DNA of 64,000 nt from Oscillatoriales cyanobacterium (GCA_004292515.1 RDXB01000034.1:62001-126000); one strand, 5' to 3'. Positions 1 to 7,556 are shown, numbered from the stretch's first letter. Numbers and translations: made by a program. The notes: a model not told the origin generated them from the sequence alone.

Positions 1-1235
1 CGCAGGAATGGTGCACCAGCGGCCAAGGCCTGGTAGACCGGATCGGTGGCGGATCCAGGCGCGAAGGTCGGATCGGGTAACAGACCCGCAGGAATCGTCC
101 CTTCCAATAATTGCTGAATCGATCGGCGACAGGCCCGAGCATGGATACCATCCTGTTCGAGGCGATCGAGCAGTTGTTCAAGCGATTGGGGTTCCGGCCC
201 CAAATGGCGCAGCAATGCTGCAAATAGGAAGTAGTGATCGTAGGGTTGGGCGCTATCCCAAGGGGGCTGCTCGGGTATATGGGTTGCCCCGATCGCTACT
301 CGGCCCAGGGCGATCGGGGCGGGGGGTGGCGGCTCCCAGGTCATGATGGCGTTGGGACATTTTTGCCGCAAGTACTGGGCTAACCCGCTGATGGGGTCGG
401 GCGCGGCGGGGGCATGATCCTGAGCCAGATCGGAACTAGCGGCGATCGCCCCGCGCACCAACAAGCGTTCAATTTTTTGGGGCGCAATCCCCGACTGGCT
501 GCAAAGGTGATTGAAGGCCCCGTTCAGGGCATCAAGGGGATCGATTGCATCCAACGGGCTGACCGGGTTATGGGCCGCCAAACCGTGCAGCGCTGCCACT
601 TGTCGGCCAAAGTCGCGATCGATCAGGGTCAGTTGTAGGATTTCCCCTTGTTGATCCAAGAGGCCGCAACAGCCCCAATTACGGGGGCCATCCCAGGCGA
701 TCGCTGCGGCCAACCCCTCAGCAACACTGCTGACCTGGCTGGCCCGAGCCACCAACCCAGCCGCCAAGACCGCTTCCCGCAGGTTCGATCGCCAAGCTTC
801 ACAACTGGGCACGGGATAGGCCACCACCACTTCACTGAGCGATCGCAACACCACGGGCGGCACAGGTTTCCCCGTCGCCGTCACCCAGGGCAGGTGCGGA
901 TCTCGCAGCCGCGCCAGGGAGCGCCCTAGGGTTTCGATCAAGACGGGTAACGGAGCCGATCGCCGCCCACCATCCCACTGCACCACAGGCTGGGCTGTTG
1001 TTGTGCCCGGTGGTCGATAGGCTAGCCCTGCCCCAAACAAGGCTTTGGGTAGGGGAGTGCTCGGTGATTCCCAATCCCACGGCAGGGCCAATTGTGGACC
1101 CTCGGGCGATCGCAAGCCCAGCAGCCCTACCCGATCAAACTGGCGATCGCGCAGGGCCACTGACCAAGTTCCCGCCCCCAAACTCAGACCCAAACACCAG
1201 CGATCGGCAGCCGGAACCAAGCTCGATCGGTTCAT
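1..1235 (-). CDS. Hsp70/actin-fold-like conserved cyanobacterial protein, 3' end beyond window edge
   Basis: Manual reverse-strand translation is open from ATG (1235-1233) to the window edge: MNRSSLVPAADRWCLGLSLGAGTWSVALRDRQFDRVGLLGL...LLVRGAIAASSDL. The N-terminal LGAGTWSVAL resembles the phosphate-1 loop of actin/Hsp70 ATPases. Not in the ORF track (runs off the edge). Start overlaps the upstream stop (ATGA). Confidence 0.6.
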   Translation of the reverse strand, partial: MNRSSLVPAADRWCLGLSLGAGTWSVALRDRQFDRVGLLGLRSPEGPQLALPWDWESPSTPLPKALFGAGLAYRPPGTTTAQPVVQWDGGRRSAPLPVLIETLGRSLARLRDPHLPWVTATGKPVPPVVLRSLSEVVVAYPVPSCEAWRSNLREAVLAAGLVARASQVSSVAEGLAAAIAWDGPRNWGCCGLLDQQGEILQLTLIDRDFGRQVAALHGLAAHNPVSPLDAIDPLDALNGAFNHLCSQSGIAPQKIERLLVRGAIAASSDLAQDHAPAAPDPISGLAQYLRQKCPNAIMTWEPPPPAPIALGRVAIGATHIPEQPPWDSAQPYDHYFLFAALLRHLGPEPQSLEQLLDRLEQDGIHARACRRSIQQLLEGTIPAGLLPDPTFAPGSATDPVYQALAAGAPFL

Positions 1236-4200
1236 TCCTTCTTGGTTTCGTCCAAATCGCTATCGGTCAACAGCGACTCCGACAACAGGGCATCGAGATC
1301 GCCATCAAGCTCACCTAAGGGCGACAAATCAGCCGATTCACCAAACTCCGTGAGGGTCGCTTCCAAGTTGGTCGGATCAAAGCTGGCCGAATCCAGATCC
1401 AAAAAGCCCAGTCCATCGTCATCATCCCCGATCGCCCCACTGGCATCAAGCGGATCGCCAAAGGCCACCATCCCGGCATCCAAGGCAAAGTCCAGGGATT
1501 GGATCTCCAGCGGGTTAGCGGTCAAATCTGCCAGACTCAGATCCGCATCGTCCCCCAGTCCCGGCAAACCATCATCCACATTATCCAGATTGAGGCTTAT
1601 CAAACCAAAATCCAGATTGTCGATCCCGTCTGCATCGTCCGTTAAGTTATCGGACAACGCATCACTCAACAGAGCATCACTCGGTAAGTCAACATTCGAC
1701 AAGTCAACATTCGGTAAATCAGCCGTGGCATCCCAACCCGTTTCCAAGGATTGGTCGATCGCTTCCCCCAAATCCGCCAAATCACCCAGGCTGCTGAGGG
1801 CATCCAGGGTCCCAGTCTGATCAGCCCCTAAGTCACTCACCACCGGGGGATCAGCGCTCAAATCCTCTAGACCAACCTCTCCCCAGTCGCCGCCGACGGG
1901 GTCGAGATCATCCACCTCATCCATCGCCTCGGGAGCCGCATCCACCGCAGCCCCCCACTCATCAGGCAAATCCATCTCCAGAGCAGCAGCTTCCGTCTCC
2001 GGGAGGGTTTCGGGCCAGTTACCCACCATGGCAGCCTCGGAGCCAGGAGCCTCGATCGATTCCTCCAATGCTAAATCGCCCAGATCGAGACCAGCCAAGT
2101 TCTCCAAGGACGCGGATGAGGCCGACTCCGCGATCGGTAATCCCAGATCATCGGTCAAAGACGCTGACAGGGAATCCTCATTCTCGATCGGGGTAGAACC
2201 CAGATCGGCTCCCAAGTCTGTTAGTCCTAGCGCTTCAGAGTCTGACGCTGCACCAAACAGATCCTCATCGAGGGCGAGACCGGCATCAGTGCTGGATTCC
2301 TCAGCGGGCCAATCGAGGTTGGGCAACTCGATCGCAGCCCCAGCCTCCAAGTCAAGATCCGGGTCAAGATCCGGGAGATCACCCAAGGAATCACCCGAGG
2401 AATCACCCAAGGGATCGTCTAGTGAGTCCTCGAAGGTCAGCTCGGAGACCGGTTCACCGCCGCCACCGGCCCAACCCAAGTCAAGATCGGGTTGATCCGC
2501 CCCTTCTGGCTCATGACCCACTACTGACGCGAAATCATCATCCAGCCCTGCGTCCAGATCGTGACCTGCGTCCAGATCGTGATCAATGCCATCGATATCA
2601 TCACCCAGGTCAGCCTCTGGCTCCTCGATCGGCTCAAGGCTAGGCAGCGATCCAGTTTGAGCAAGTTGATCAAGGTTTTGATCAAGATCAAGATCTAAAC
2701 CCAAACCAGCTTCTAGGGGGTCTTCGTCGGCAGCCTCCCAACCCAAGTCGGGCCCAAGGTCGGCAGCGGGCAACTCCAGCTCGTCCGCTAGCCCATCGAT
2801 CGGGGCCTCGGGGGCAAACGCTGCGCCCATCAAGCCCTCAGCCAAATCGGGCAGGCTCTCCGCGCTTTCTTCGGGAGCTGCCAGGGCTGCCTCCCAGTCC
2901 ACTTCCATGGGTGGTGCTTCGTCTATGCCACCGGCCTGACTGATCTCGCCAAAAGTGGGATCATCCCGCAACCCGGCGATCGACTCTAGACCCGCTTCCC
3001 GATCGTCTCCCGCCTCGACCGTGGCTTCCCACAGGCTGGCAGATCCTAAGTCCAGACCCGACGTGACATCAGCAACCTCGGTGAAATTAGCGACATCGGT
3101 GACATCCTCCAAAGTCCCATCATCCGGCAGGTCTAGACCCGGCAACAGATCATCGCCAAAGTCGGTACTGCTGTCGGGTCCGTCCGCCGCCCCATCCAGG
3201 GACAAGCCATCGGATAAATCATCGGATAGGTCATCAGTTCCATCCAGGGACAAGCCATCGGATAAATCACCGGACAGGTCGTCAGTTCCATCCAGGGACA
3301 AGCCATCATCATCCACCGCTGCTTCCCAATCGGGCAGCTCGATCGGGGGCAGGGGATCTTCTGTGGCATCTTCAACCACTGATTCAGCCCCAAAGTCTAG
3401 CTCGCTCGCATTCGCCAGGGACTCGGTGGCTCCATCTAGCTCGATCGCCCCTAAATCCGTGCTGGCCGGATCATCCAGGCTGATTCCTGCCTCCAAGTCG
3501 GGCAGCAAGCCCAGTAACTGATCGTCCGCAGGTTGGGACTCCGCTGGCTCGGTGGCATCTGACCAGGATCCCTCAAACATTGAGTTGGGTTCAGCCACTG
3601 CCGCCGGATCGAGGGGCGGATCGAATGGGTCAAATGCTGACATCACATCCGGTTCCAGTTCGATCGGCAGCGCTTCATCCAACTCAGTCAGCGCATCGCC
3701 AGCCCAATCAGCGATCGGGTCAGGAACTGGCTCATCTCCCACGCCCGGTTGTTGCCAGGCCGACAACTCCGCCCGCAAATCACCTCCCAAGTCTTCAGAC
3801 TCGGAGGCTAACTCGGCGGCCATCGGCGGGGGAGCATTGTCAAAGTCGATCGCCCCTGGGTCTGAAGTTGCTGGCAATGTTGGCGGTTCGATCGCGATCT
3901 GCTCCCACGCCTCGGCTAAGTCACTGGCAGGGTCACTGGCAGGGTCACTAGCGGGGACACTGGCGAAATCTACCCCTGCTGAATCCGCATCGGCATCCAC
4001 AGACCAGTCATCAAAGTTCAGGAGCGACGGCGCTGCTCCTGCCATCTCTGGATCTAGGGTCGGAGCCGCCAATGCACTTTGGCTGGTTTCTAGGACTTCA
4101 AAATCAATATCAGCGACACCCATATCAACATCAGCAACACCCATGTCAATGCTGGGTTCCGGGCGATCGCCACCGTCCGTCACCCGGGACGCATCCACCG

Positions 4201-6115
4201 CCGAGCCGCTGGGGAAGTCCGTCAGGGCCGGCATACCGCCGCCACCCCAATCGGTCAACAGATCATCGCTGGAGTCTAAGGAAATTGTTGGCTCGCTGCT
4301 GACTGCATCCAAATCGGTCAGGTCAAGGCTCGGATCGATCGCCTGGAACTCGGAAACCGGAGTCGCCAAATCCATCCCTTCGGCTAGCAACGGCGATTCC
4401 CAGGGCAAATCCAGGTTCGTGTCATCAGTTCCGTCTGTCATGTCATCGGTGGACTGACCGGCTGGCAGGGGCGGTGCCTCCTCCCAATCAGGCTCCGCAT
4501 CGTAGTCCAGATCGGGCATAGCCAGAATGACATCCATCGCCAGGGGTAGTGCTTCGGCAGCCAGCGGTTCCGGCTCCTCACCCTCTGCAAAGGACGCGGC
4601 GATCGCCCCCGTTGCGATCATGCCAGTAGCCGCCACAGCCAAGGGATCCCAGTCACTCGCCACCGGCAGCTCATCGCCAGGGCCATCATCGGTGGCAGCG
4701 GATGTCTCGGGTTGCGGCTCAGGCAATTGGAAAATGGCATCCACATCGCCGAAGATCTCGTCCTCTAGCCCCCCAATCAGCGTGGGACCGCTGGTATCGA
4801 TCTCCGTCACTGCTTCCGACGCATCCTCCAGCGCGATCGCACCGACCACCAGGAACTCTGGCAGGGATGACGGGGCACTCGCTGCCGTGGTCGGCGAGGC
4901 TAGCGCCCCACCATTCAACTCCTCGGCGCTACTGGACAACTCAGGCGAGGTCTGATCTATTCCCCACAGATCTGGGGGCATCACTTCCCGATCCAGGTCA
5001 TCATTTAGGTCATCTAGGTCATCATTTAGACCATCCAGGGTGGCAAAGTCCACCTCGGTGGCCGCAGCAGTCTCGGCACTGGTCAAGGCTGCATCCTCGG
5101 GCCCAGCCAGGGCTGCCATTGCCAAAGCATCGGGGCTGGTCAGCGCGTCGTTCGGTTGCTCACTGGCATCCTCACTGGCATCCTCGGGAATCGGTGGCGG
5201 CAAGGGTGGCATGGCCAAGCTCGTGGCCGTTAGGGACGGACGCACCAGGCCGCTGCTCCCCACTCTGCTGCTTTCGTCGGCTAGGGTTGCCGTCGGTTCA
5301 CCCGGCAGGTCGCGCCCCAGGGTGGAGGCCAGCCGGCTCAACCAATGGTCTAGAACCGCTTCACTCTCTTCACCCAGCACATGCATCCGTTCTAGGGCTG
5401 CATTCAGGGCTTCTTCGTAGTGCTGAGAGTTGGTTTGCAAGGCCGTGATGATCGCCCCGAGGGTGGTATGCAGACGATCGAGCACCCCACTGGCGGATGT
5501 TTCCAAACTGGCCAAGTCAGCGGTTCCCGGGGCCGAGGTCAACTCTGGCGATCGGGCGACCAGTTGCGAAACCTGTTCGCTAATGCTGGTTTGTAGGCGA
5601 TCGCGCAGTTGCTGCAAAAAGTCGCCGATTAGTTGCTCTTGGTTTGCCTGCTGCTGGGCCAGGGACTGGTAGTACTGGCGCTGATTTTCGAGTTGGGCAA
5701 TTTCTTCGCTGAGGGACTGGCGCTGGTGGCGAAGGGCTTCCAAATCCAGTTGCATCGGTGCAATGGTTTCTTGGCGCAGGCGATCGATATCCTGTTGAAT
5801 CGACTGCAACGCCGCTTGGGTTAGATCGCGCACGGCGGCACTGCTGGCCGAGTCCGAAGCGCTGGTCTGGAGGTCGGGCGACAGGGCATCCCAGGATTGC
5901 TCAACCCAGTTGGGTTCGTTGCTGCCCGCCGTGCTGCCCGCTGTGCTGCCCGGTGCGCTGGCCGGCTGCTCGGCCAGGTCGGCTAAGTAAGTCCGTACCT
6001 GCTCAACCAGGCTGCGGGGCGATCGCACCTCCTCAGCACCATCACTACTCGCAGCAAGGGCCGCGTCTAGGTCGGCTAAAAGACGTTTAATTTGCAAGTC
6101 TCGATCAAGCGTCAC
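1232..6115 (-). CDS. Very large acidic, Asp/Leu/Ala-rich, probably disordered protein with N-terminal coiled coil
   Basis: 1627-aa ORF. N-terminus QSIQQDIDRLRQE...LRHQRQSLSEEIAQLENQRQYYQSLAQQQ is coiled-coil-like; the remainder is low-complexity D/E/A/L with short repeats (DGLSLDGTDDLSDDLS). Confidence 0.8.
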   Translation of the reverse strand: MTLDRDLQIKRLLADLDAALAASSDGAEEVRSPRSLVEQVRTYLADLAEQPASAPGSTAGSTAGSNEPNWVEQSWDALSPDLQTSASDSASSAAVRDLTQAALQSIQQDIDRLRQETIAPMQLDLEALRHQRQSLSEEIAQLENQRQYYQSLAQQQANQEQLIGDFLQQLRDRLQTSISEQVSQLVARSPELTSAPGTADLASLETSASGVLDRLHTTLGAIITALQTNSQHYEEALNAALERMHVLGEESEAVLDHWLSRLASTLGRDLPGEPTATLADESSRVGSSGLVRPSLTATSLAMPPLPPPIPEDASEDASEQPNDALTSPDALAMAALAGPEDAALTSAETAAATEVDFATLDGLNDDLDDLNDDLDREVMPPDLWGIDQTSPELSSSAEELNGGALASPTTAASAPSSLPEFLVVGAIALEDASEAVTEIDTSGPTLIGGLEDEIFGDVDAIFQLPEPQPETSAATDDGPGDELPVASDWDPLAVAATGMIATGAIAASFAEGEEPEPLAAEALPLAMDVILAMPDLDYDAEPDWEEAPPLPAGQSTDDMTDGTDDTNLDLPWESPLLAEGMDLATPVSEFQAIDPSLDLTDLDAVSSEPTISLDSSDDLLTDWGGGGMPALTDFPSGSAVDASRVTDGGDRPEPSIDMGVADVDMGVADIDFEVLETSQSALAAPTLDPEMAGAAPSLLNFDDWSVDADADSAGVDFASVPASDPASDPASDLAEAWEQIAIEPPTLPATSDPGAIDFDNAPPPMAAELASESEDLGGDLRAELSAWQQPGVGDEPVPDPIADWAGDALTELDEALPIELEPDVMSAFDPFDPPLDPAAVAEPNSMFEGSWSDATEPAESQPADDQLLGLLPDLEAGISLDDPASTDLGAIELDGATESLANASELDFGAESVVEDATEDPLPPIELPDWEAAVDDDGLSLDGTDDLSGDLSDGLSLDGTDDLSDDLSDGLSLDGAADGPDSSTDFGDDLLPGLDLPDDGTLEDVTDVANFTEVADVTSGLDLGSASLWEATVEAGDDREAGLESIAGLRDDPTFGEISQAGGIDEAPPMEVDWEAALAAPEESAESLPDLAEGLMGAAFAPEAPIDGLADELELPAADLGPDLGWEAADEDPLEAGLGLDLDLDQNLDQLAQTGSLPSLEPIEEPEADLGDDIDGIDHDLDAGHDLDAGLDDDFASVVGHEPEGADQPDLDLGWAGGGGEPVSELTFEDSLDDPLGDSSGDSLGDLPDLDPDLDLEAGAAIELPNLDWPAEESSTDAGLALDEDLFGAASDSEALGLTDLGADLGSTPIENEDSLSASLTDDLGLPIAESASSASLENLAGLDLGDLALEESIEAPGSEAAMVGNWPETLPETEAAALEMDLPDEWGAAVDAAPEAMDEVDDLDPVGGDWGEVGLEDLSADPPVVSDLGADQTGTLDALSSLGDLADLGEAIDQSLETGWDATADLPNVDLSNVDLPSDALLSDALSDNLTDDADGIDNLDFGLISLNLDNVDDGLPGLGDDADLSLADLTANPLEIQSLDFALDAGMVAFGDPLDASGAIGDDDDGLGFLDLDSASFDPTNLEATLTEFGESADLSPLGELDGDLDALLSESLLTDSDLDETKKE
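3192..3306. repeat. 48-bp in-frame tandem repeat inside the acidic CDS (2 full copies plus a partial)
   Basis: ccatccagggacaagccatcggataaatc... repeats at 3192, 3240 and 3288; encodes a 16-aa repeat on the minus strand. Confidence 0.8.
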
Positions 6116-6824: not shown

Positions 6825-7556
6825 GTGAATGACTCTTGCGATCGCCCCATGGAAGACCGTCCCACCTCCCGCGACACCCATGCGGATATTGAGCGACTGA
6901 TCGAATCAGCACCTTTCTTTCGGTCTCTGCCGCGCGATGCCGTCGAGATTGCTACTGGTCATGTCGTTACCCGTACCCACCCGTCCAACCAAGTTATTTT
7001 GCTGGAAAATGACTGGGGCGGCTCGGTCTACTTCATCTTGGAAGGCTGGGTCAAAATCCGCACTTACAACCTCGAAGGCAAAGAAGTCACCCTGAACATT
7101 TTGGGGCGCGGTGAAATTTTTGGGGAAATGGCAGCCCTCGACGAAGTACCCCGCTCCACCGATGCCATCACCCTTGCGCCGACCACGATCGGCAGCATTC
7201 CCGCCCAGGATTTCATTACGCTGGTGGAAACTGAACCCCAAGCCGGCATTAAACTCGCCCAATTGATGGGGCGGCGACTGCGACAGGTAAACCGGCGGCT
7301 GCGGCTGCGGGAGTCCGACAGCGTATCCCGCGTGGCGGATATTTTGATGTTTTTGGCTGAAGGGCAGGGTCGCAGCAGCGATCGCGGTGTCGAAATCCCT
7401 AACCTGCCCCATCGGGAACTGAGCAGCCTCAGCGGTTTAGCCCGCGAAACCGTTACCCGTGTGCTGACCAAGTTGGAAAAGAAGGGCTTGATCGAGCGGG
7501 ATAGCGATGTGCTGCGAATTCCCAGCCTGAATGCGTTGGAGCGCACGATTTGCTAG
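6825..7556 (+). CDS. Crp/Fnr family transcriptional regulator
   Basis: cNMP-binding fold (GWVKIRTYNLEGKEVTLNILGRGEIFGEMAALDEVPRSTDAIT) plus C-terminal HTH (LSSLSGLARETVTRVLTKLEKKGLIER). Start could be the second Met. Confidence 0.92.
   Translation: MNDSCDRPMEDRPTSRDTHADIERLIESAPFFRSLPRDAVEIATGHVVTRTHPSNQVILLENDWGGSVYFILEGWVKIRTYNLEGKEVTLNILGRGEIFGEMAALDEVPRSTDAITLAPTTIGSIPAQDFITLVETEPQAGIKLAQLMGRRLRQVNRRLRLRESDSVSRVADILMFLAEGQGRSSDRGVEIPNLPHRELSSLSGLARETVTRVLTKLEKKGLIERDSDVLRIPSLNALERTIC

Follow-up and report, generated by a model that had tools for sequence, protein, structure and literature searches.

An overlapping gene pair in an Oscillatoriales cyanobacterium represents the split form of a widespread coiled-coil/Hsp70-like protein family with a candidate slippage site

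The window analysed here is a stretch of 64,000 nucleotides from an Oscillatoriales cyanobacterium (GCA_004292515.1 RDXB01000034.1:62001-126000). At its start lie two overlapping genes on the minus strand and, divergent from them, the gene of a regulator:

1..1235, minus strand: Hsp70-like gene with a degenerate nucleotide-binding domain, truncated at the window edge; ATG at 1233-1235, whole gene 451 aa
1232..1243, minus strand: junction AAG AAG GAA TGA with overlapping ATG (ATGA), in the place of the A9-A11 tract of most split relatives
1232..6115, minus strand: large-protein gene, 1,627 aa, GTG start, TGA at 1232-1234
1355..5248, minus strand: acidic linker (residues 290-1587), 26% D+E, short internal repeats
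5258..6115, minus strand: conserved N-terminal domain (residues 1-286) with a long predicted coiled coil; A2 alignment, 40-67% identity
6825..7556, plus strand: divergent CRP/FNR-family regulator, conserved neighbour of the coiled-coil/Hsp70-like unit

The overlap of the large gene's TGA with the ATG of the next gene was found as the original prediction had placed it, and because the same ATGA recurs in the genomes G001, G002 and G003 it is not a matter of chance. The large protein consists of an N-terminal coiled-coil domain, an acidic low-complexity linker of about 1,300 aa and a conserved C-terminal tail whose last residues are KKE. Its description as an acidic protein with internal repeats is borne out by a content of 390 D+E against 29 K+R (net -361), by a 48-nt unit present 2.4 times at 3192-3307, and by numerous units of 12, 18 and 21 nt. 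The claim of more than 1,300 residues of low complexity likewise describes a real feature, an acidic linker with only 7 K or R in the 1,297 aa between residues 291 and 1587. A coiled coil had been placed at residues 95-190 and one is indeed present there, but the conserved region that contains it is broader, at about residues 1-275. This region is 40-67% identical inside the family, includes the motif LExQRQYYQSLAQQQxNQ and has homologues throughout the class; its profile finds matches in 170 of 292 class genomes, a count that includes some matches of 600-700 aa that are coiled-coil EamA transporters. Such matches of 600-700 aa are present in many class genomes. Their identification as HmpF was considered and rejected, as both of those examined proved to be EamA transporters that begin with a coiled coil. 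The genes at L072:16488-18338 (minus strand) and L070:16190-18064 (plus strand) encode proteins of about 620 aa that carry an EamA transporter domain at the C-terminus, and the coiled-coil profile matches their N-terminal stretch with E 2e-16 and 5e-9, respectively. It is possible that these are a membrane-anchored relative of the scaffold.

The ORF track lacks the partner gene because this gene extends beyond the window. The whole gene (L002:8880-10235 = G000:C46:61880-63235) encodes 40 aa beyond the part visible in the window. No significant family emerged from Pfam or NCBIfam scans of the window proteins, an HTH_20 match to the window-cut reading of 411 aa disappeared with the full protein, and a phmmer search of the PDB with the single partner protein returned noise only. 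The PDB matches of a profile built from 24 relatives were exclusively DnaK, other Hsp70, MreB and PilM chains (best E 0.0027), and profile-profile alignment (hhalign) of the family with the genome's own DnaKs gave E 1.8e-6 over a span that covers the nucleotide-binding domain. With the AF2 model of the window's partner protein (pLDDT 77.5), Foldseek retrieved the ATPase domains of BiP, DnaK and Ssz1 from the PDB (E 7.6e-8); there were 175 matches with E<0.001, and the best 50 of these 175 were all members of the Hsp70 family or complexes containing one. A full-length relative, modelled by AlphaFold with pLDDT 92 and pTM 0.93, had as its top Foldseek match the ATP-bound nucleotide-binding domain of DnaK (E 5.7e-14, TM 0.63 by target length). 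The profile, hhalign, and AlphaFold with Foldseek agree, and the original prediction of an Hsp70/actin-type fold for the partner is right, the fold being that of an Hsp70-type nucleotide-binding domain. The window genome also has three full DnaKs, and partial HSP70-profile matches lie at G000:C35:3634-4401 and G000:C101:14456-14677, in ORFs of 484 and 347 aa.

The suggestion that the window's copy is an ATPase fared less well. Among 142 aligned relatives of the Hsp70-like head the phosphate-1 Asp is present in 138, and the phosphate-2 Asp of the DLGGGT motif, which most of the family replaces by Ser or Asn, in only 8. The window's genus has Ser at the phosphate-1 position and has lost by deletion the phosphate-2 strand pair and the segment that follows it (phosphate-2/IIB), about 150 aa of the ATPase core, and because of these two losses its copy is probably inactive as an ATPase. 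Nor does the suggested role of chaperone find a structural counterpart: in the models of the window protein and of the full-length relative the Hsp70 substrate-binding beta domain and lid are absent after the nucleotide-binding domain, and the C-terminus of the head is a domain of about 150 aa that is mainly helical. Pfam and NCBIfam scores are below cut-offs in those Hsp70-like proteins whose tables were examined. The likeliest activity in the family, judged from these residues, would be nucleotide binding with little hydrolysis, and in the window's copy none.

Together, the two overlapping genes correspond to a single protein, here split into halves, of a family that is widespread in cyanobacteria. 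A synteny check of the pair across cyanobacteria had been proposed, and the linkage turned out to be stronger than was guessed, since in most cases the two are fused into one protein. The Hsp70-like profile has matches in 168 of 292 class genomes. Among 80 named loci 42 are fused and 20 adjacent, and nearly all the others end at a contig edge; a set of 148 distinct loci from filamentous and some other cyanobacteria, with MAG loci and related, hence not independent, genomes among them, contains 82 that are fused or fused-like, 54 that are split but adjacent and 12 that are truncated. On a FastTree phylogeny of the Hsp70-like heads, which has long branches, the fused or split state changes at least 19 times. 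This variation explains why gene prediction would yield the family as one, two or broken genes. In one genome (L067, G185:C1:1643000-1662000) a coiled-coil/acidic protein of 938 aa has no detectable Hsp70-like gene nearby, and here the head has apparently been lost.

These data bear on the reading of the pair as a system of two genes, in which an active Hsp70/actin ATPase, chaperone or cytomotive, would act with an acidic scaffold. Although the Hsp70 fold and the conserved linkage are in keeping with it, we consider it very improbable, given that most relatives make single polypeptides, that most of the family has Ser or Asn for the phosphate-2 Asp, that the substrate-binding domain is absent and that the window's copy is without the phosphate-1 Asp, phosphate-2 and IIB. 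What survives of the proposed two-component system is that two genes are present at this locus; they represent a derived state, one gene in two halves, whose joint in relatives keeps an A10 tract.

The surroundings of the unit are also conserved. A CRP/FNR-family regulator lies divergently upstream of it in 85 of the 120 loci with room, a position that suggests shared regulation with the unit. DUF2232 and CobT often come next after the regulator, and in the window genome both are found downstream of the head gene instead. The recurring neighbourhood (L002:6620-8729, with window 6825-7556 on the plus strand) comprises a CRP-family regulator, a DUF2232 membrane protein and a member of the NMN-dependent CobT family, and it often closes with a protein of about 120 aa with the C-terminal sequence LTAQLTAAYNRIAALEEQLL.

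At most split joints an unbroken A9-A11 codes for the last residues of the coiled-coil gene product, KKK or KK. A tract of 9-11 A is found at or near the linker/Hsp70 joint in 75 of the 148 loci and is almost always exactly A10 (63 of 78 when runs of at least 8 A at the joint are counted). Fused genes have it as well: 28 of 82 contain A8 or longer ahead of the Hsp70-like domain, and the head is already in frame in 26 fused or fused-like genes that have at least A9. The junction DNA, 133 kb in all, holds 76 A/T runs of at least 9 (sense A) versus 12 in 1,950 kb of flanking DNA, an enrichment of about 90-fold for a junction window of 900 nt that was set after the A-run had been seen. All three codon phases are represented among the tracts, the base that follows the run varies, and among 73 rows of tract-bearing genes on the FastTree phylogeny the run has been kept through at least 13 changes between the fused and the split state. 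Two sister Microcoleaceae with an intact A10 differ by one C beside the run, with GAA AGC AAA AAA AAA ACC CTA in L139 and GAA AGC AAA AAA AAA ACC TAA in L152. Homopolymer sequencing error as the source of the split state is disfavoured, because A10 is found in both states and the frame-changing indels lie beside the run, and also by the presence of split genes in single-contig genomes.

The tract is not universal. Family f23 (loci L204, L205 and L212) and the Leptolyngbya/Nodosilinea group are large clades of fused genes without an A tract, many of them of 1,700-2,500 aa; there slippage might have been lost, or never gained, and because these clades are fused without the tract it would not be essential to the family. 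In the window's genus the tract has been lost (AAGAAGGAATGA) and the sequence at the joint is now AAGAAGGA, which is why the tract was invisible to the original reader. Across G003 and the window's genus the joints read GAA AAG AAG AAG GAA TGA or ACC AAG AAG GAA TGA, with the ATG overlapping the stop and no tract, while G005, of the same family as the window's organism, keeps A9. The window shows a derived state, in which the two genes overlap and the Hsp70-like head has decayed, and its genus might make the two halves by coupling through the stop-start overlap.

If nothing more were known than that the tract codes for KK or KKK in the junctions examined, that the KKE tail is kept in the window's genus without an A-run and that some fused clades are free of the tract, it might be supposed that no recoding takes place, the A-run being a mutational hotspot or a product of selection for a Lys-rich motif and the split and fused genes alternative ordinary states. 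Selection for poly-lysine at the protein level could contribute to the A-run. However, lysine codons are only 56% AAA in the Hsp70-like domains, yet A10 is near-invariant across three codon phases, and since KKE persists in the window's lineage without it the peptide does not depend on the run. The surrounding DNA is nearly devoid of A/T runs of at least 10 (1 in 1.95 Mb), and a mere hotspot should erode, whereas the tract has outlasted the changes of state counted above. Together with the unusually close stops in the other two frames, these points make the absence of recoding an unlikely explanation.

The layout of these frames is as follows. In 74 of 75 loci, all but L187, the frame of the Hsp70-like domain continues without a stop for more than 550 codons past the tract, and each of the other two frames soon meets a stop, at medians of 2 and 6-7.5 codons as compared with 5 and 21 at control positions; the layout is alike in fused and split genes. 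Recoding of some kind at the tract is judged likely. Tract and frame layout together bear the mark of programmed transcriptional slippage, by which a scaffold-only product and one of scaffold-Hsp70 would arise, and the tract-bearing relatives combine what is characteristic of slippage genes: a homopolymeric A/T stretch of 9 or more within the coding region, its conservation beyond protein-level need, and a distinct predicted product from the shifted frame. The window itself, with AAGAAGGA at the joint, has no such run.

A fusion made by programmed -1 ribosomal frameshifting on an A-rich slippery tract of the A AAA AAG type would be the alternative mechanism. The A-tracts do contain the slippery heptamer, and at about three quarters of the split tract-bearing loci the head is in the -1 frame; at several others, however, it is in +1, and the 26 fused or fused-like genes that keep the run already have the head in frame. 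No conserved RNA structure was found downstream of the tract (mean z -0.36) and no conserved SD-like sequence upstream of it, such a sequence occurring at only 6 of 75 loci, and the variable base after the run is also against this mechanism. A ribosomal origin of the fusion is accordingly judged improbable, and because of the +1 heads and the lack of downstream structure and SD sequence we regard slippage of the polymerase as the probable mechanism.

On balance it is likely that the window holds the split form of a single family in which, in the relatives, slippage at A10 yields scaffold and scaffold-Hsp70 proteins, and that the window's genus has turned to stop-start coupling with a decayed head. 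The N-terminal coiled coil would mediate oligomerisation and be followed by the acidic flexible linker, the C-terminal Hsp70-type domain and the helical domain of about 150 aa. At the A10 that, the Leptolyngbya/Nodosilinea and f23 clades apart, is conserved at or near the linker-Hsp70 boundary in most relatives, slippage of RNA polymerase, possibly with ribosomal frameshifting as well, would generate mRNAs of different frames, so that each gene would give two products, the scaffold only and scaffold-Hsp70, whatever its genomic frame. Mixed oligomers might then carry a proportion of Hsp70-like heads set by slippage, on long acidic tethers and gated by nucleotide. The head would most likely bind ATP with little or no hydrolysis, and its role would be that of an interaction module that can be switched, not that of a chaperone in folding. 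The window's genus may make two polypeptides coupled by stop and start, and the head, without its ATPase core, could be only a protein-binding subunit of the scaffold.

A further consequence, which the sequence comparison makes rather probable, is that selection keeps the A10 and not the genomic frame. Genes annotated as fused and as split may then be functionally equivalent, and the window's genus could have escaped to two coupled genes with a pseudo-ATPase head. A site kept across much of the class while the frame flips amounts to a natural experiment, in which the nucleotide signal is separated from the peptide. To our knowledge, few chromosomal bacterial genes use transcriptional slippage to set the ratio of two proteins. 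Scaffolds built of a coiled coil, an acidic linker and an Hsp70-like domain apparently form an undescribed family, present in more than half of the sampled class genomes; in the literature searched, mostly without subscription papers, neither the family nor its candidate slippage site was described.

Of the known systems, the nucleotide-binding domain of Hsp70/DnaK, and especially that of Ssz1, is alike in its two-lobed actin/Hsp70 fold, the GG of the adenosine site and, in most relatives, the DxGTT phosphate-1 loop. Ssz1 is not known to hydrolyse ATP. The family differs in its 12-15% identity in structural alignments, in the replacement of the phosphate-2 Asp, in having its own helical C-terminus in place of a substrate-binding domain and in the tether of acidic linker to a coiled coil. 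Proteins of the PilM/MreB type show a weak profile similarity, with PilM_2 matching 23 of 58 members at E<=0.01 (the first member is below the cut-off) and MreB and PilM among the PDB profile matches, but Foldseek puts DnaK/BiP first, and where scores were examined the family is below the Pfam cut-offs for both HSP70 and PilM. FcmB/FcmC, a cyanobacterial actin-like protein with its partner, FcmB deriving from plasmid-partition actins (PMC12645912), and HmpF, a motility protein at the pilus motors of filamentous cyanobacteria (PMC9239167), can be likened to the family from their published descriptions. Weighed in this way as candidates, neither FcmB/FcmC nor DnaK1/DnaJ3-HmpF gave evidence of identity. 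For the joint, the closest parallel is the dnaX gene of Thermus thermophilus, in which two products, tau and gamma, arise from a run of 9 that has stops close by in each of the other frames (PMC5009743). Both have a homopolymer in the coding region, a long product that needs the C-terminal part and close stops in the other frames; the present family differs in its sense-strand A10 and unrelated protein, and in that its genomic frame changes from one species to another with the tract preserved.
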